Assembly: GCA_026004795.1 (NCBI GenBank)
Contig: BPJV01000003.1
Coordinates: forward strand, 1 to 64,000
Reading direction: 5' to 3'
Source: Pirellulaceae bacterium
GTDB lineage: Bacteria > Planctomycetota > Planctomycetia > Pirellulales > Pirellulaceae
Length of the DNA stretch: 64,000 nucleotides
Part shown: piece by piece, positions 13,135-19,044 of the stretch
Position numbering within the stretch: the first letter of the stretch is position 1
How the letters are laid out: every line of letters starts with the position of its first letter
The notes under the pieces: generated by a model
The model's input: the letters and a program-made list of their open reading frames with translations, nothing else
Told to the model about the DNA's origin: nothing
The model's database searches: none
Position numbers and translations under genes: made by a program

Positions 13135-14577
13135 ATGAACCGACCCTCTCTTGATGAAGCACGATCCAAGATCATCGCCACCATCGGTCCGGCGTGCGAC
13201 TCCCCGCAGATGCTGGCCAAGTTGGTCGATCACGGAGTCGACATTTTCCGCATCAATGCGGCCCATGGTAGTCAACCTTATTTTGCCGAATTGCTGCGGC
13301 GCATCGAAGAAGTTCGGCAGATGACAGGTTTCCCCGTTGGTGTGCTTCTCGATTTGTCTGGTCCGAAAATCCGGTTGGGACAGTTGTTTCAAGACCCTCT
13401 GGAGGTCGAACCGGGGGCGGAACTCGAGTTCGTGCGCGGGGAGGAACCACAGGCACCAACCGAACTGACCTCCAATTACCCGAAGCTGGTCGACGAAGTA
13501 CGGCCTGGTGACCGCATCATGCTGGCCGACGGTACGATCTCGTTAGAGGTAATTGCCTGCGCGGCGGACCGAGTGCGCTGCCGAGTGCTCACCGGGGGAG
13601 TGATTCGCAGTCGGCAAGGGATCAATTTGCCGGGCGTCGCCTTGAGCGTATCGGCGATGCGCCCGGAGGATCTCGACAACGCGATCTGGGCTGCCCAAAA
13701 CGGCATTGATTTCGTCAGCCTCAGCTTCGTCCGCAGTCCTCAAGATGTGACGTCCCTGAAAGACCTCCTCCGGTCACTCGACTGCCAAGCGCTGGTGATC
13801 GCCAAGATCGAAAAGCGAGAGGCGTTGGAGCGGTTAGAAGAGATCGTCGACGCCGCTGACGGCGTGATGGTAGCGCGCGGAGATCTAGGCGTAGAGATCG
13901 ACGTCGCCGAGACCCCCATCGCCCAAAAACGCATCATCCAAGTCTGTCGCGACAAGTTGAAACCGGTCATCGTGGCCACCCAGATGCTCGAAAGCATGCA
14001 CGAAAACAGTCGCCCCACGCGTGCCGAGGCCAGCGATGTGGCCAACGCCATTCTCGATGGCGCCGACGCCTGCATGCTCAGCGGTGAAACCGCCATCGGC
14101 AAGTACCCGATCGCCGCCGTGGACACGATGAACCGCATCATGCGCTATACCGAGCGACTGTTGAAGGACCAACCGGTCGCTCCGCTTCCCAAAGAGGTCA
14201 AGCGCGTCCATCCCATCACCAGTGCCGTGACGTACAACTCATCGAACATCGCCCAGGCCATCGGTGCGAAGCTCGTCGTCGTCGCCAGTCGGACCGGCGG
14301 CACCGCCTGGGTCAAGTCCAAGCAACGCAACTACATCCCCACTCTCGGCGTAAGCAACGATTGGGCGATTCTCAGACGAATGTGTTTATTCTGGGGCATC
14401 ATGCCGCATTACATGGAGTCGCTAGACGATCCTCAGCAGCTAATTCGGGAAGTAGTGCACTGGGGCAAGACCCACAGCTTGCTGGCCCCCGGTGACAATA
14501 TCGTCGTCGTCGCCGGTACCGGTGTAATGGCCAAGACGCATAACCTAGTCGTCGTCCATCAAGTCCAACCTGATTGA
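13135..14577 (+). CDS. pyk: Pyruvate kinase
   Basis: A 480-residue glycolytic enzyme converting phosphoenolpyruvate and ADP to pyruvate and ATP. Signatures are ARSKIIATIGPACDS at the N-terminus, LLDLSGPKIRLG, the active-site block VIAKIEKREALERL, GVMVARGDLGVEI, VIVATQMLESM and LSGETAIGKYP. The C-terminal allosteric domain is present, giving the standard length. Transcribed away from the SDR gene, with 117 bases between them. Confidence 0.96.
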   Translation: MNRPSLDEARSKIIATIGPACDSPQMLAKLVDHGVDIFRINAAHGSQPYFAELLRRIEEVRQMTGFPVGVLLDLSGPKIRLGQLFQDPLEVEPGAELEFVRGEEPQAPTELTSNYPKLVDEVRPGDRIMLADGTISLEVIACAADRVRCRVLTGGVIRSRQGINLPGVALSVSAMRPEDLDNAIWAAQNGIDFVSLSFVRSPQDVTSLKDLLRSLDCQALVIAKIEKREALERLEEIVDAADGVMVARGDLGVEIDVAETPIAQKRIIQVCRDKLKPVIVATQMLESMHENSRPTRAEASDVANAILDGADACMLSGETAIGKYPIAAVDTMNRIMRYTERLLKDQPVAPLPKEVKRVHPITSAVTYNSSNIAQAIGAKLVVVASRTGGTAWVKSKQRNYIPTLGVSNDWAILRRMCLFWGIMPHYMESLDDPQQLIREVVHWGKTHSLLAPGDNIVVVAGTGVMAKTHNLVVVHQVQPD

Positions 14578-14819: not shown

Positions 14820-14848
14820 TTGACCTCTACCTCCGATCGCTCTAGTAT
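14820..14848 (+). promoter_or_regulatory. Probable promoter of the leuA leader transcript
   Basis: TTGACC (14820-14825) is followed by 17 bases and TAGTAT (14843-14848). This would start a transcript near 14855, upstream of the leader peptide ORF. Confidence 0.5.
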
Positions 14849-14910
14849 AGGATCAGCTGGATCGATGTTAGCCAGCGAATCCCCCTAACGTGATACTCAG
14901 GAAACTTGCC

Positions 14911-14985
14911 ATGGCGCGGTGCGGTCTCCAGACCTTATCCCTTACCAAGCTCCTTCGGGAGCGTATCGGGGTTGGACTGCACTGA
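14911..14985 (+). CDS. leuL: Leucine-rich leader peptide of the leuA attenuator
   Basis: A 24-codon ORF, ATG at 14911 to TGA at 14983-14985. AGGA (14899-14902) gives a ribosome-binding site 8 bases upstream. Six of 24 codons encode leucine (codons 6, 9, 11, 14, 15 and 23), with the cluster LQTLSLTKLL in the middle. Leader peptides rich in the end-product amino acid are the sensing part of classical attenuators: ribosomes stall at these codons when charged tRNA-Leu is scarce. The downstream gene is leuA. The peptide itself is not expected to have a function. The reading frame is different from leuA. Confidence 0.7.
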   Translation: MARCGLQTLSLTKLLRERIGVGLH

Positions 14986-15054
14986 TCGCCTTGCAGCAAC
15001 TACACGTCGGTTCCATCCAACCCCGATGCTCCTCGCGAGCATCGGGGTTTTTTC
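14927..15054 (+). promoter_or_regulatory. Transcription attenuator of leuA (mutually exclusive hairpins)
   Basis: Four pairing regions can be drawn. Region 1 (14927-14934, TCCAGACC) can pair with part of region 2 (14970-14976), with one bulged base. Region 2 (14965-14976, ATCGGGGTTGGA) is perfectly complementary over 12 bases to 15016-15027 in region 3: the antiterminator. Region 3 (15021-15031, CCCCGATGCTC) pairs perfectly over 11 bases with region 4 (15037-15047), followed by TTTTTTC: the terminator. The two structures share 15021-15027 and so exclude each other. Region 2 overlaps the last codons of the leader peptide, so a ribosome finishing it would cover region 2 and allow termination. 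Confidence 0.75.
15021..15053 (+). terminator. Intrinsic terminator inside the leuA leader
   Basis: A perfect 11-bp GC-rich stem (15021-15031 with 15037-15047), a 5-base loop CTCGC, and a run of six T residues. It ends about 39 bases before the leuA start codon, so it must be read through for leuA expression. Confidence 0.85.
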
Positions 15055-15091
15055 GTTGTTTTTCCAGCCGAATCAGCAATTAGGTACCACC

Positions 15092-16645
15092 ATGCGGCGA
15101 ATCATCATCTTTGACACGACGCTGCGTGACGGCGAGCAATCGCCTGGCGCAAGCATGAACCTGAACGAGAAACTGGAAGTGGCTCAAGCGTTGGCCGAGT
15201 TGGGAGTCGATGTTATCGAAGCCGGATTTCCTATCGCCTCTCCCGGAGATTTCGCGGCCGTACGTGAGATCGCCAACACGGTCCGCGGGCCCACCATCTG
15301 CGGCCTGGCCCGCTGCAATACGGCTGATATCGAACGTGCTTGGGAGGCGCTTAAAGGGGCCACGCGGCCACGCATCCATGTGTTCTTGGCCACCAGCGCC
15401 ATCCACCGCGAATTCAAACTGCGGATGACGCAGGAGGAGATCGTGGCCCGTGCTGTCCAAGGAGTTCAGCTGGCCGCCAAGTACTGTGACGACATCGAGT
15501 TCTCGCCGGAAGATGCTGCCCGCACCGAACACGACTTCCTCTGCCGAGTCGTGGAAGCGGCCATCGACGCGGGAGCAACAACGATCAATATCCCCGATAC
15601 TGTTGGTTATGCGGTCCCCAGCGAAATGTACGACCGCTTTCGCATGCTGCTCAACCGCGTGCCGAACATCGATCGCTGCGTGTTAAGCGTCCATTGCCAC
15701 GATGACTTGGGACTGGCCGTGGCCAACTCGCTGGCCGCCGTCGAAGCTGGTTGCGGGCAAATCGAATGCACCATCAATGGCATCGGCGAACGCGCAGGAA
15801 ACTGCGCCCTGGAAGAAGTGGTCATGGCTTTGCGCACCCGCAGTGATCATTACCAGTGCGAAACAGCCATCAACACCAAGCGTCTCGTCCCCACCAGCCG
15901 GCTGGTGAGCAAGGTTACCGGTCTGGAGGTACAGCGCAACAAGGCGATCGTCGGCCGCAACGCCTTCGCTCACGAATCCGGCATCCACCAGGACGGGATG
16001 CTCAAGGAACCCAGCACCTACGAGATCATGCGACCGGAAGACGTGGGATTTGCCAAGACCGACCTCGTGTTGGGGAAACACTCGGGGCGCGCCGCGCTGT
16101 CCGACCGTATTCGTGCGTTGGGATTCTCCCTGACCGCCGAACAACTGCAACACGTCTTTGAACAGTTCAAGCAACTGGCCGACAAGAAGAAATCCATCTA
16201 CGACGGCGACATCGTCGCTTTGGTACAACAAGAAATCTCGGGTCAAGCGGACGAAGCCTGGCGTTTGGTGCGATTCGACGTCACCAGTGGAACGGGCCAT
16301 CCTCCCCGGGTTTCCTTAACGCTTTCCCACCGCGGCAATGAGGTATCCGAAGAAGTAGCTCAAGGCGATGGGCCTATCGATGCTGCCTTTTGGGCCGTTG
16401 AGAAGATTACGGGTTACCACGTCGTATGCAAGGACTTTCGCGTGCGCAGTGCCACCCTAGGGCGCGATGCCCAAGGCGAAGTGCAATTGGAGATCGAGCA
16501 TGAAGGTCAAACGATCCGCGGCACGGGCGTATCGACCGATACCGTGGAAGCGACCATTCTGGCCATGCTGAACGCCATCAACCGCATTGAACAATCTGCT
16601 ACGCCAACCAAGGAAGCTGCGCCATCAACCTCACCGCGGCAATGA
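15092..16645 (+). CDS. leuA: 2-isopropylmalate synthase
   Basis: A 517-residue enzyme making the first committed step of leucine synthesis, condensing acetyl-CoA with 2-ketoisovalerate. Signatures are FDTTLRDGEQSPGASMN near the N-terminus, SVHCHDDLGLAVANSLAAV (metal-binding HxH), and GIGERAGNCALEEVVMAL. The C-terminal regulatory domain (about residues 385-500) is present, so feedback inhibition by leucine is likely. I start at 15092 because the longer frame would run through the leader terminator. Length is normal. No other leu genes adjoin it; the next gene is convergent. Confidence 0.96.
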   Translation: MRRIIIFDTTLRDGEQSPGASMNLNEKLEVAQALAELGVDVIEAGFPIASPGDFAAVREIANTVRGPTICGLARCNTADIERAWEALKGATRPRIHVFLATSAIHREFKLRMTQEEIVARAVQGVQLAAKYCDDIEFSPEDAARTEHDFLCRVVEAAIDAGATTINIPDTVGYAVPSEMYDRFRMLLNRVPNIDRCVLSVHCHDDLGLAVANSLAAVEAGCGQIECTINGIGERAGNCALEEVVMALRTRSDHYQCETAINTKRLVPTSRLVSKVTGLEVQRNKAIVGRNAFAHESGIHQDGMLKEPSTYEIMRPEDVGFAKTDLVLGKHSGRAALSDRIRALGFSLTAEQLQHVFEQFKQLADKKKSIYDGDIVALVQQEISGQADEAWRLVRFDVTSGTGHPPRVSLTLSHRGNEVSEEVAQGDGPIDAAFWAVEKITGYHVVCKDFRVRSATLGRDAQGEVQLEIEHEGQTIRGTGVSTDTVEATILAMLNAINRIEQSATPTKEAAPSTSPRQ

Positions 16646-16689: not shown

Positions 16690-19044
16690 TCAGTCATACA
16701 GCAAGTACGCGGCTCGGCGGGAGAGAAACTTGTCGACTTCCGCCGCCGCGGCTTCCAGGATTCGCTCCGGGGTAGCCCCTTGCTCCATCAGCTGCACCAC
16801 CTCATCGTTTCCAATCAAGCGGTTCAGGTGCTTCCGCTCCCAGGCCTCGGGGTAAAGCTTCCGCAGGGCAACGGCAAGCTCCACGCCCACCTGCACCGGC
16901 TGCAGCAAGCTGCGGTCGACGACGTCGATGTACAGGCCGTCGCACTCCTCCCCCGCGTATTTGCTGCTATCGGGCGTAAAACGAATCGGCACCCAGCGTA
17001 CTCCCGGGACGCGCCGCTGTCGCAGATAGGCGGCCAGCTCCACCCCGTCGATCCACGGAGCGCCGATGATTTCAAACGGCGTATCGGTACCGCGTCCCAC
17101 AGACAGATTCGTCGTCTCCAACATGCCGATGCCCGGATAGAGATAGGCCTGCTTCAGATTGCGCATGTTCGGTGAGGGATTGACCCAGCGAAGCCCCGTG
17201 GCATCCCAGCTCATCTCTCGACGCCATTCGGTACAGGCAATCACTTGCAACTCCAGATCCATATCGCGTTCTACGCGAAAGAGCTGCGCCAGCTCGCCGA
17301 CGGTCATCCCATGACGCAGTGGCAAGCGATGAAATCCCACGAACGATTCTTTCCCGCGATCCAACATGGGGCCGGCAACGTGCACGCCATCGAGCGGATT
17401 GGGACGATCCAAAACGACGAACTTCTTTCCGTGTTCCGCCGCCGCCATCATCGCCTCGCCCATCGTCGAGACATAGGTGTAGAAGCGCGTCCCGATGTCT
17501 TGAATGTCGAACACCAAGGTATCGATCTCGGCCATCATGGCCGGCGTGGGTCGACGCGTGTCCCCGTAGAGACTGAACACCTTCAATCCGGTTCGACGAT
17601 CTCGGGAGTCATTGATGCGGGCCACATCGAGCTTTCCCTCCAATCCGTGCTCCGGGCTGAACAACACCCGCAGATCCACTTCGGGTGCCGCTGCCAATAC
17701 TTCGATGGTGGTTCTTCCGTCGCGCAAACGGCCCGTATGGTTGGTGATCAGTCCGATTCGCTGGCCTCGCAAAACGCGAAAACCGTCTTCTTCCAACACA
17801 TCGATGCCACAGGACGTGGGATGCGGGTAGGCCGGTGCGGTGTCATCGCGAATGGCCGTGGCAATACGATTGGCGATTTGGCCCGCCAAATGATTCACGC
17901 TGCCCTTGCCATCAGGATGGACACGATTACTCAAAAAGATGAAGAACAAATCCAATTCCGGATCGATCCACATCACGGTGCCGGTAAACCCTCCATGGCC
18001 GAACGCGGCAGGTGAGAGCAGATCGCCACGATTGCTCGAGTACCCCGTCTGCTTGTCCCATCCCAACCCGCGCCAACCGCTGGAGACCCGATACCCACGC
18101 GTCATCAACTCCACGGTGCGGGGATGCAAGACGGTCTGGCCACCCTCGCCGCCAGCAAGCCGCGCCCCGGCAAGCATGGCGGTAGCGTAGCGGGCCAAGT
18201 CGCTTGCCGTAGAGAACAAACCAGCGTGTCCAGCCACACCACCCAACAAGTAGGCGCGAGGATCGTGGACCACGCCGCGCATCCACTGCCCATCCCGCTT
18301 TTCGGTCGGCGCCGCCCGTGCCTGTAACTCCGGCGGCGGATTGAATCCAGTTTCCAACATCCCCAACGGCTGAAAGATCTTCTTGGCGGCGAACTGATCC
18401 AGCGGCCAGCCGCTGATCGCCTCCACCAGCTTCCCCAGGACGATAAAGTTGACGTCGGAATACTTGAATTGCTGGCCCACAGGTGCAATCAATCGCAAAT
18501 CACAAATCTTCTCCCAGGCCTTTTCGGGGCCCTGTCGATAGTCAGCTAACGGATTATCGGGAGTAAGTCCACTCTGATGCACCAACAGATCGACGACGCG
18601 GATAGCATCCTTGCCATGGCTTCCGAAAGTCGGCAAGTACTTGGCCACACGATCGTCCAGCCTCAACCTGCCCTCTTCAACTAGTCTCATGATACTGGTG
18701 GCCGTGGCAACCGGCTTGGTCAGCGATGCCAAGTCAAAGAGGGTATCGATCGTCATCGGTTCGGCATCCGGTGCAACCTTTCGCAATCCAAAAGCGTTCA
18801 AGTAGGCGATTTTTCCGTGGCGGCCCACGCAGATGACGCAGCCCGGCATGTTCCCGGCGGCAATCGCCTGTTCGACCAACGGTGCGATCTGTGCCAACCG
18901 TTGGCCATCGAAACCGACCTCCTCAGCAGTCACTGTGGGAACGTCCGTGCGTGCAACGGGAGCGGCTGACTGCGCCCACAGTCGATTCCACGCCAGGAGC
19001 AAAATGAGCATGCCCCCCGGCCTTCGGCAGCAGAAGCCACGCAC
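16690..19044 (-). CDS. Serine beta-lactamase-like / NamZ (DUF1343) fusion
   Basis: A 784-residue protein with an N-terminal hydrophobic export signal (about residues 11-25). Residues about 40-400 are a class C beta-lactamase/penicillin-binding-like domain: SLTK (SxxK nucleophile) in FDLASLTKPVAT, YSD in FKYSDVNFIVLG, and HGGFTG in place of KTG. Residues about 410-784 are DUF1343, the NamZ family, exo-beta-N-acetylmuramidases that release MurNAc from peptidoglycan fragments; RIGLITNHTG, LFSPEHGLEG and VFDIQDIGTRFYTY are typical. In Bacillus the corresponding ybbE and ybbC genes are separate neighbours in a muropeptide recovery cluster. The fusion suggests joint processing of cell-wall fragments. 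Confidence 0.85.
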   Translation of the reverse strand: MRGFCCRRPGGMLILLLAWNRLWAQSAAPVARTDVPTVTAEEVGFDGQRLAQIAPLVEQAIAAGNMPGCVICVGRHGKIAYLNAFGLRKVAPDAEPMTIDTLFDLASLTKPVATATSIMRLVEEGRLRLDDRVAKYLPTFGSHGKDAIRVVDLLVHQSGLTPDNPLADYRQGPEKAWEKICDLRLIAPVGQQFKYSDVNFIVLGKLVEAISGWPLDQFAAKKIFQPLGMLETGFNPPPELQARAAPTEKRDGQWMRGVVHDPRAYLLGGVAGHAGLFSTASDLARYATAMLAGARLAGGEGGQTVLHPRTVELMTRGYRVSSGWRGLGWDKQTGYSSNRGDLLSPAAFGHGGFTGTVMWIDPELDLFFIFLSNRVHPDGKGSVNHLAGQIANRIATAIRDDTAPAYPHPTSCGIDVLEEDGFRVLRGQRIGLITNHTGRLRDGRTTIEVLAAAPEVDLRVLFSPEHGLEGKLDVARINDSRDRRTGLKVFSLYGDTRRPTPAMMAEIDTLVFDIQDIGTRFYTYVSTMGEAMMAAAEHGKKFVVLDRPNPLDGVHVAGPMLDRGKESFVGFHRLPLRHGMTVGELAQLFRVERDMDLELQVIACTEWRREMSWDATGLRWVNPSPNMRNLKQAYLYPGIGMLETTNLSVGRGTDTPFEIIGAPWIDGVELAAYLRQRRVPGVRWVPIRFTPDSSKYAGEECDGLYIDVVDRSLLQPVQVGVELAVALRKLYPEAWERKHLNRLIGNDEVVQLMEQGATPERILEAAAAEVDKFLSRRAAYLLYD

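Follow-up and report, generated by a model that had tools for sequence, protein, structure and literature searches.

Results

The leuA locus and its leader

The window, by which we mean the whole stretch of 64,000 nucleotides from a Pirellulaceae bacterium, contains a leuA gene for a bacterial-type 2-isopropylmalate synthase (Table 1), the enzyme of the committing step of leucine synthesis. This identity is secure, with a score of 723 bits against TIGR00973, whose cut-off is 599. The gene upstream on the same strand is, judging from its sequence, one that we take to encode pyruvate kinase, and a relative of it is also found upstream of leuA at two related loci (L007 and L025). The next long ORF after leuA (16690-19044) lies on the opposite strand, and leuA appears to be a single gene with no operon partners.

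The promoter-like site between the two genes agrees with the consensus at 9 of 12 positions and is the only one on the plus strand; on both strands together, two such sites were found in the leader region where 0.2 were expected. It is followed by a short ORF, MARCGLQTLSLTKLLRERIGVGLH*, with six Leu codons. The nearest relative (L005, LeuA identity 89%) has a similar leader, MQLADQLRLSLILLLREHRGVGLY*, containing eight Leu codons. The window leader is nevertheless on the weak side of its family: its Leu content is 25% where the family averages 33%, there are never more than two Leu in succession, and CTA codons are absent.

Two hairpins can form in the leader. The terminator has a perfect stem of 11 bp (15021-15031 with 15037-15047), or of 13 bp if A-T pairs are included (15019-15049), in which case the first two residues of its T run are also counted within the stem. 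The antiterminator is a perfect 12-bp complementarity of 14965-14976 with 15016-15027, and as the two structures overlap by 7 nt (15021-15027), they are mutually exclusive. Reading further along the sequence, the antiterminator could be extended past a 2-nt bulge by pairing GGAGC (14958-14962) with GCTCC (15028-15032); the alternative to this extension is a 1:2 hairpin in which the same GGAGC pairs with a GCTCC within the ORF. The leader as a whole folds with a z-score of -4.1, none of 200 shuffles being equally stable, and the window antiterminator (z -4.4) ranks second among 101 leaders. The preliminary description of this DNA had reported the TTGACC-17-TAGTAT promoter, the ribosome-binding site, the 24-codon ORF with six Leu codons, the 12-bp antiterminator, the 11-bp terminator with six T and the seven-base overlap, all of which we reproduced exactly from the sequence.

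Table 1. Features of the leuA locus in the window (all on the plus strand)
Feature	Position	Details	Basis
Upstream neighbour gene	13135..14577	same strand as leuA	ORF list
Sigma-70-like promoter	14820..14848	TTGACC 14820-14825, 17-nt spacer, TAGTAT 14843-14848	sequence
Ribosome-binding-site-like motif	14899..14902	AGGA, 8 nt 5' of leader ATG	sequence
Leader peptide ORF	14911..14985	24 codons, 6 Leu; stop codon 14983-14985	
Possible region 1:2 hairpin	14949..14962	GCTCC-TTCG-GGAGC; overlaps Leu codons 14 and 15	fold
Region 2, antiterminator 5' arm	14958..14976	core 14965-14976; possible extension GGAGC 14958-14962	sequence, fold
Region 3, common to both hairpins	15016..15032	antiterminator core 15016-15027; terminator 15019/15021-15031	sequence, fold
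Intrinsic terminator	15019..15053	13-bp stem, 5-nt loop, T6 15048-15053	sequence, family covariation
leuA, 2-isopropylmalate synthase, bacterial type	15092..16645	517 aa	TIGR00973

Conservation of the leader among Pirellulaceae

The window leader was compared with its counterparts in a sample of 130 leuA upstream regions from Pirellulaceae, which are not independent, several coming from one genus. As controls we used 53 regions from 18 genomes (ilvB 19, leuC 18, trpE 16); trpE-family matches under the cut-off were excluded, and two genomes, including that of the window, are without a trpE control. A terminator of the CCC..GGG type is present in 110 of the 130 leuA regions and absent from 20, against 1 of the 53 controls, 14 of which have any hairpin followed by a T run. 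Leader ORFs, picked blind to amino-acid composition, are present in 101 of 113 terminator-bearing leaders (mean of 20 shuffled sets 26, maximum 41). Their Leu share is 32.5%, against 11.0% in shuffled sequences (maximum 13.7%), and the share of CTA among Leu codons is 26.8% for a set of 21 leaders and 4.4% for 30 leuA genes; both biases bear indirectly on translation of the ORF. Outside Leu, the peptides are highly variable. A promoter of the window's type precedes the ORF in 82 of the 101 leaders, the window counted, and a promoter score of at least 8 is reached in 80 (shuffled mean 5.3, maximum 14).

Covariation is strong for the terminator, moderate for the antiterminator and weak at best for the 1:2 hairpin. 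In the terminator, 11 of 13 pairs have changes on both sides, and its covariation of 0.400 compares with 0.182 in shuffles. The antiterminator reaches 0.201 (shuffled 0.136), nearly twice the best slid register, with two of five measures not significant; its mean z per leader is -1.36, and 36 of the 101 leaders fall individually below -1.65. Since the hairpins were located by folding each sequence, the pairing percentages are inflated, both the 64.6% of cells that pair in the antiterminator and the 58.5% in the 1:2 hairpin (shuffled 56.3%; 8/500 on one of five measures). Family covariation gives little support to the 1:2 hairpin as a conserved element. In 75 of the 101 leaders, arm 2 as predicted extends across the stop codon of the ORF. 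The checks proposed in the preliminary description, covariation in both stems and conservation of Leu codons in relatives, therefore came out positive, no shuffle in 500 being as high for either stem, and its interpretation of the leader as an attenuator is supported by the comparative evidence.

Amino-acid specificity and spread

In a per-locus test of the 130 leuA regions, 102 were positive for Leu, 2 for Ile and 3 for Val, with 28 failing for Leu. Ile-rich leaders with terminators also precede cimA, encoding citramalate synthase, the isoleucine-branch paralogue, in the window's genome as well as in others; of 40 cimA regions, 23 were positive for Ile, 2 for Leu and 8 for Val. The same test gave no positive for Leu, Ile, Val or Trp among the 53 ilvB, leuC and trpE regions. 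These counts suggest that the sensed amino acid tracks the pathway, Leu before leuA and Ile before cimA. The element is also found in further families of the class Planctomycetia, while several other planctomycete families were negative in the test. In genus g11 the terminator type is absent from all 12 sampled bacterial-type leuA loci, which indicates that attenuator loss does occur.

Leaderless leaders

The leader ORF starts 5-8 nt past the -10 box in 44 of the 101 leaders, which are predicted on this basis to be leaderless, and we consider that the ORF is probably leaderless in these relatives, with start sites that are predicted. The window ATG lies 62 nt past the predicted -10 box, so this leader is not leaderless by the same prediction. 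An RBS-like motif is rare in leaders with a 5' UTR (6 of 36, 3.5 expected). The leaderless-promoter pattern alone is without power, as it gave 3 matches in the window's genome and 5 with the reversed control; one of the three is the cimA leader, and no attenuator was visible by eye at the other two.

Discussion

We propose, with a probability that we put at roughly 0.93, that the sequence between promoter and gene is a ribosome-mediated transcription attenuator that senses charged leucyl-tRNA and controls leuA. RNA polymerase would start 3' of 14848, and a ribosome would begin the 24-codon leader at 14911. When Leu-tRNA is scarce, the ribosome would stall at the Leu codons, at CTC CTT (14950-14955) or earlier, and its leading edge would stop short of most of the region 2 core. 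Region 2, thus freed, could pair with region 3, blocking the terminator, and leuA would be transcribed. When Leu-tRNA is plentiful, the ribosome would reach the stop codon at 14983 and cover most of region 2, leaving region 3 to pair with region 4, and transcription would end near 15053. The comparison with relatives shows that the promoter, the ORF with its amino-acid bias, the terminator and the arm competing with it are conserved; we infer where the ribosome stands and where transcription starts, that it terminates and that it responds to leucine.

The alternative to which we give most weight, though still an unlikely one, is that the attenuator of the window has weakened and, though its construction is that of its relatives, is now near-constitutive. 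Its low Leu content and the loss in g11 would fit such a decay, whereas the perfect arms of both hairpins, the good promoter and RBS, the high rank of the antiterminator and the eight Leu codons of the closest relative speak against it. It is very improbable that attenuation is secondary to a function in trans, exerted by the Leu-rich peptide or by the short RNA that termination leaves: a trans role has been reported for peTrpL and rnTrpL of S. meliloti (excerpts of PMC7298713), but here the peptides vary widely apart from Leu, and Ile replaces Leu before cimA. Trans function and attenuation are not exclusive roles.

We find it harder still to believe that the hairpin merely terminates the upstream gene and that leuA is unregulated behind a later promoter of its own. 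The upstream gene does end at 14577 on the same strand as the hairpin, but a promoter-like site lies between the two and none was found on the plus strand from 14848 to leuA. Moreover, the Leu-rich ORF and the competing arm lie 5' of the hairpin family-wide, and the same terminator type is present at L006, L008 and L009 despite upstream flanks unlike the window's, with a Leu-rich ORF detected by scan in L006 and L009. Equally hard to credit is another RNA sensor or protein-binding element, such as a T-box, a riboswitch or the actinobacterial LEU element, working the terminator with an incidental ORF. In Actinobacteria, leuA does carry a LEU element, which is of a different, pseudoknot type and has a Leu-rich ORF (excerpts of PMC1262725), but the specificity of the planctomycete ORF follows the pathway, and there was no Rfam match at the gathering threshold, Leu_leader included, in the window or 20 related loci. 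That search gave no known RNA family for the element; T-box models matched neither the window nor the related loci, and none of six weak sub-threshold matches was a leucine leader, T-box or riboswitch. Least credible of all is that leuA itself begins within the leader and is translated as a 579-aa ORF from TTG 14906, with an N-terminal extension and no separate peptide. Although in the window the open frame of leuA stretches from 14906 to 16645, that frame is open through the leader in just 3 of the 101 leaders, the window among them, on which grounds we reject an N-terminal extension, and the Leu-rich ORF sits in another frame than leuA's.

Leader-peptide attenuation is classical and best known from E. 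coli, and the enterobacterial leu operon has such an attenuator (leuL, Rfam Leu_leader). The planctomycete leader resembles it in its Leu-rich ORF, its control of the leucine pathway, the rare CUA codons seen in many relatives of the window and the arm common to terminator and antiterminator. It differs in having no Rfam match, in a leuA that is apparently alone, in an arm 2 that lies over the stop codon in most leaders and in the many relatives that are probably leaderless. A Leu-rich leader ORF also precedes leuA in Actinobacteria (LEU element, PMC1262725; leuL1, PMC8079986). According to excerpts of these papers, the run of Leu codons pairs with the Shine-Dalgarno box of leuA in the base stem of the LEU element, which may fold as a pseudoknot (PMC1262725), and leuL1 of S. 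lividans is leaderless, as many planctomycete leaders are by prediction, and is described as without a typical Rho-independent terminator (PMC8079986), whereas the planctomycete leader has a strong, covarying one. Excerpts of further reports describe leaderless attenuators, whose leader ORF lies at or near the RNA 5' end, in S. meliloti trpL (PMC7298713), C. glutamicum ilvBNC (PMC11857589) and S. lividans ilvL and trpL1 (PMC8079986), all from other phyla and for other amino acids; the planctomycete start sites are predicted, not mapped. Attenuation outside Proteobacteria and Actinobacteria is exemplified, again in excerpts, by His leader peptides of Firmicutes (PMC2965389) and the Leu-rich ilv leader of S. 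aureus (PMC5794164), in another phylum and for other genes. The main text of PMC2965389 contains no mention of planctomyc*, Rhodopirellula or leuA. In one open-access library, none of the matches listed described attenuation either in planctomycetes or on cimA, in agreement with the preliminary description, which knew of none in planctomycetes.

Classical leader-peptide attenuation would extend to one more phylum, in which about a hundred leaders provide comparative examples. The genes leuA and cimA encode the acyl-CoA-dependent synthases that commit metabolism to leucine and isoleucine, and we are inclined to think, with some reserve, that throughout the class Planctomycetia attenuation has long controlled both, through Leu-rich leaders on leuA and Ile-rich ones on cimA, many of them leaderless. 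On this view the leader would be a fixed module, the enzyme gene that follows it would have been swapped at least twice, and attenuation would give evidence of transcription-translation coupling. As attenuation needs a ribosome close behind RNA polymerase, the leaders would, if our reading is true, be genomic evidence for coupling in planctomycetes. A spatial separation of DNA and ribosomes has been proposed for these bacteria, and a working attenuator would require coupling; the nucleus-like reading of planctomycete cells is itself disputed (excerpts of PMC6554331).

The Ile-type leaders of cimA and the replacement of leuA in place could serve as useful natural experiments, in which the leader would stay with the pathway step and not with a particular enzyme family. 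Leaders of this kind also precede leuA of another enzyme type, and such a distant type seems, from the sequences compared, to have replaced leuA in place behind a retained leader in at least two lineages.

Results

A classical leucine attenuator had been proposed upstream of the window's leuA, comprising a promoter, a Leu-rich reading frame with a ribosome-binding site and two mutually exclusive hairpins, and on re-reading the sequence every part was located and all coordinates were exact (see the table). None of 200 shuffles folds as stably as the segment spanning both hairpins (z -4.1), in which the terminator belongs to the minimum-energy structure and the antiterminator to the centroid structure. 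The antiterminator duplex reaches z -4.4, second among 101 family leaders, for which the mean is -1.36 and z falls below -1.65 in 36. The leader is of the UTR type, with 62 nt between predicted -10 box and ATG, its stop codon lies shortly 3' of the core antiterminator arm, it has no CTA codon, and the downstream protein is a bacterial-type LeuA (TIGR00973, 723 bits). A second tiny ORF lies 5' of the leader ORF, and a comparable one (MLQAYL) occupies a near-equivalent position at a related locus, L005.

Coordinates of leader elements and other loci (window positions, forward strand, unless a genome and contig are named)
Feature	Position	Remarks
Leader	14820-15091	promoter-like TTGACC-17-TAGTAT at start
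Tiny ORF	14865-14888	MLASESP, ATG to TAA; begins 16 nt past -10 box
Leader ORF	ATG 14911, stop 14983	MARCGLQTLSLTKLLRERIGVGLH, then stop; AGGA 8 bases 5' of ATG
Leu14 and Leu15 codons	14950-14955	
Folded segment	14949-15053	
Antiterminator	14965-14976 with 15016-15027	12 bp, perfect
Terminator	15021-15031 with 15037-15047	11 bp, perfect, then six T
leuA	15092-16645	
Window genome cimA (L023, L270, L297)	G000:C2:380154-381932	TIGR00977, 664 bits
Window genome trpE-family match	G000:C2:47394-48789	broken over several frames, one internal TGA
LeuA fragment of a genus mate (L032)	G014:C292:5263-5481	61% identical to LeuA C-terminus, two in-frame TAA

Relatives were collected by LeuA searches of 15 genomes of the genus, 199 of the family (taken as Pirellulaceae; 196 with a match), 149 of the phylum and 118 of the class. 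The family set, drawn from the stronger listed matches among the 196 genomes, held 131 loci, and removal of L010, which has no gene start, left 130 including the window's own. Regions preceding the family's ilvB, leuC and trpE genes, 53 in all, served as controls. CCC..GGG hairpins with a T run behind them stand in 110/130 leuA regions vs 1/53 controls, and any hairpin of equal strength in 114/130 vs 14/53. The 20 regions without the CCC..GGG type include two from genus g59 and six others, one of which (L142) still has a leader rich in Leu, with a hairpin that differs slightly. The remaining 12 (L040, L044, L045, L050, L052, L054, L064, L074, L087, L090, L105, L111) are every sampled bacterial-type leuA locus of genus g11, an apparent lineage-specific loss of this attenuator terminator type.

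Leader ORFs were sought in 113 leaders, by a terminator choice slightly different from that giving 110/130. Whatever its composition, the longest frame that starts with ATG, has 10-45 codons and stops 15-60 nt 5' of the terminator was taken. Such an ORF was found in 101 (mean 26 and maximum 41 in 20 shuffled sets), with a pooled Leu content of 32.5% vs 11.0% in shuffles (maximum 13.7%), a three-fold excess, no other residue exceeding 1.3-fold. CTA made up 26.8% of 149 Leu codons in the 21 leaders from loci analysed together with their leuA gene, vs 4.4% of 1093 in 30 leuA genes. A per-locus shuffle test for amino-acid enrichment (p <= 0.025) was positive for Leu in 102 of the 130 regions, for Ile in 2 and for Val in 3; the Leu-codon conservation and stem covariation proposed as checks in the preliminary description are both found in the relatives.

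The stems were examined in a purely sequence-based alignment of those leaders, 58 of 101, that have distinct terminator arms, 5 or more Leu and a length of up to 140 nt. RNAalifold arrived at the terminator on its own, 8/9 pairs showing double changes, and covariation over 13 terminator pairs was 0.400 vs 0.182 shuffled (0/500 as high; best slid register 0.135). Antiterminator covariation was 0.201 vs 0.136 (0/500; slid registers at most 0.108); its counts of pairs with a double change (194/500) and of pair types (55/500) were not significant. The shares of cells that pair, 87.3% vs 74.6% shuffled for the terminator and 64.6% vs 59.4% for the antiterminator, are biased upward because the terminators were first found by folding their own sequence. 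There is little support for a 1:2 hairpin conserved across the family: 58.5% of cells pair vs 56.3%, and its covariation was matched by 39/500 shuffles, one measure standing at 8/500.

A sigma-70-like promoter precedes 82/101 leader ORFs in the 120 nt scanned upstream of each, with a score of at least 8 in 80 (shuffled mean 5.3, maximum 14). In 44 leaders the -10 box ends 5-8 nt 5' of the ATG (shuffled mean 0.4, maximum 2), so that the predicted transcription start coincides with the start codon or lies beside it. Shine-Dalgarno-like motifs are rare even in UTR-type leaders (6/36, 3.5 expected).

Upstream of the window genome's cimA, encoding citramalate synthase, lies an Ile-rich leader, MNCNGSISTMIIGIAIIGRRKGGAR. 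It has a terminator, and a gap of 7 nt separates its promoter from the ATG. The cimA set comprised 40 loci, 10 of them from the search of the window's genus and one (L291) having almost no upstream sequence; the genus locus L011, whose upstream is coding and holds no leader, was excluded. Thirty-five distinct loci carry a terminator; the leuA-leader rule yields an ORF at 21, with 19.6% Ile vs 5.4% shuffled (maximum of 100 sets, 10.1%) and 4.6% Leu. The per-locus test was positive for Ile in 23 of the 40, for Val in 8 and for Leu in 2, and for Leu, Ile, Val or Trp in 0/53 ilvB, leuC and trpE regions, which puts its false-positive rate low. The sensed amino acid therefore tracks the pathway, and on composition the window genome's cimA leader, like many others before cimA in the family, appears to be an isoleucine attenuator. 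The split trpE-family match of the window genome is possibly a frameshifted or misassembled gene.

Further afield, 96 regions were taken, and L194, which has no gene-start motif, was removed; 42 of the 95 were Leu-positive, and L213, of the main family, was negative. Within the class the positives were 11/15 in f2, 7/16 in f84, 5/12 in f85, 2/2 in f86, 0/1 in f87 and 3/3 in f88; f77-f83, further families of the order, together gave 8/12. Among families beyond the class, f24 (2/2), f32 (2/2), f46 (1/1) and f67 (1/1) were positive, and f11 (0/7), f43 (0/5), f47 (0/4), f12 (0/2) and eight more families (0/9) were not. Misses in any of these groups, inside the class or out, are weak evidence of absence because the rule was set for Pirellulaceae.

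Discussion

The ribosome's footprint allows its leading edge to be placed on the leader RNA. With the Leu14 or Leu15 codon in the A site, a stalled ribosome would extend to about 14962-14965 and leave almost the entire 12-bp core open to pair with the arm common to both hairpins, while a ribosome at the stop codon would hide most of the 5' arm, so that the terminator could form. These positions we infer for the window's leader; across the family, predicted arm 2 overlaps the leader's own stop codon in 75/101 leaders, so a terminating ribosome would occupy it.

The leader-peptide mechanism itself is classical. A 2010 survey regarded such systems, to its authors' knowledge, as unproven beyond Proteobacteria and Actinobacteria, ermC aside, and extended them to Firmicutes; its main text names neither planctomycetes nor leuA (PMC2965389). 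Leaderless attenuator peptides are known in S. meliloti (trpL; PMC7298713), C. glutamicum (ilvBNC; PMC11857589) and S. lividans, there including leuL1 before leuA (PMC8079986). At gathering threshold Rfam gave no matching family for the window and 20 related loci, no attenuator on cimA was among the literature matches listed, and, as the preliminary description had supposed, no planctomycete case was found in the open-access literature searched. What is new is its occurrence in this phylum and on this scale, together with the cimA counterpart and the inferred gene swaps.

Attenuation needs a ribosome closely trailing RNA polymerase. Given that need, a planctomycete attenuator would bear on the separation of transcription and translation. 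Such separation has been reported in a planctomycete and also disputed (PMC6212462, PMC5394234, PMC6554331).

In the genus, where some genomes are incomplete, bacterial-type LeuA was not found in G001, G002, G003, G005, G007, G008 and G010, and G014 has a fragment only. Genus mates have instead a distant-type LeuA (L018, L025-L030; 26-31% identity to the window's); L025 passes TIGR00970, the yeast-type family, and NF002991, and the type of the others was assigned by similarity. Read by eye, a Leu-rich leader and terminator stand at 5/6 of L025-L030, L029 having none; L018 is truncated by the end of its contig. The leader of L025 has its nearest counterparts in genus mates with a bacterial-type gene (L008, 72.5% over 120 nt), and the pyk-side neighbour of L025 matches the window's (73.8% over 252 residues); L028 and L030 have the same downstream neighbour as bacterial-type mates, and the leaders of L026 and L028 most resemble the one at a different replaced locus. 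Elsewhere in the family the TIGR00970 cut-off was passed in 3/119 genomes (L470, L471, L472). The leaderless-type leader of L471, MTNNLLLSLLLLRRLSGGR, finds its nearest match, 75% over 113 nt, among leaders of bacterial-type leuA in other genera, and the downstream neighbour of L471 is shared (80% over 174 residues). At L472 no leader was seen. These comparisons suggest at least two in-place swaps of leuA with the leader retained. At L470 leader and gene may instead have moved together, since its leader is most like one found at a replaced locus in the genus of the window. Flanking genes of distant-type loci are, where comparable, common to bacterial-type leuA loci. The G014 fragment is perhaps a remnant of the gene, or a contig-end artefact.
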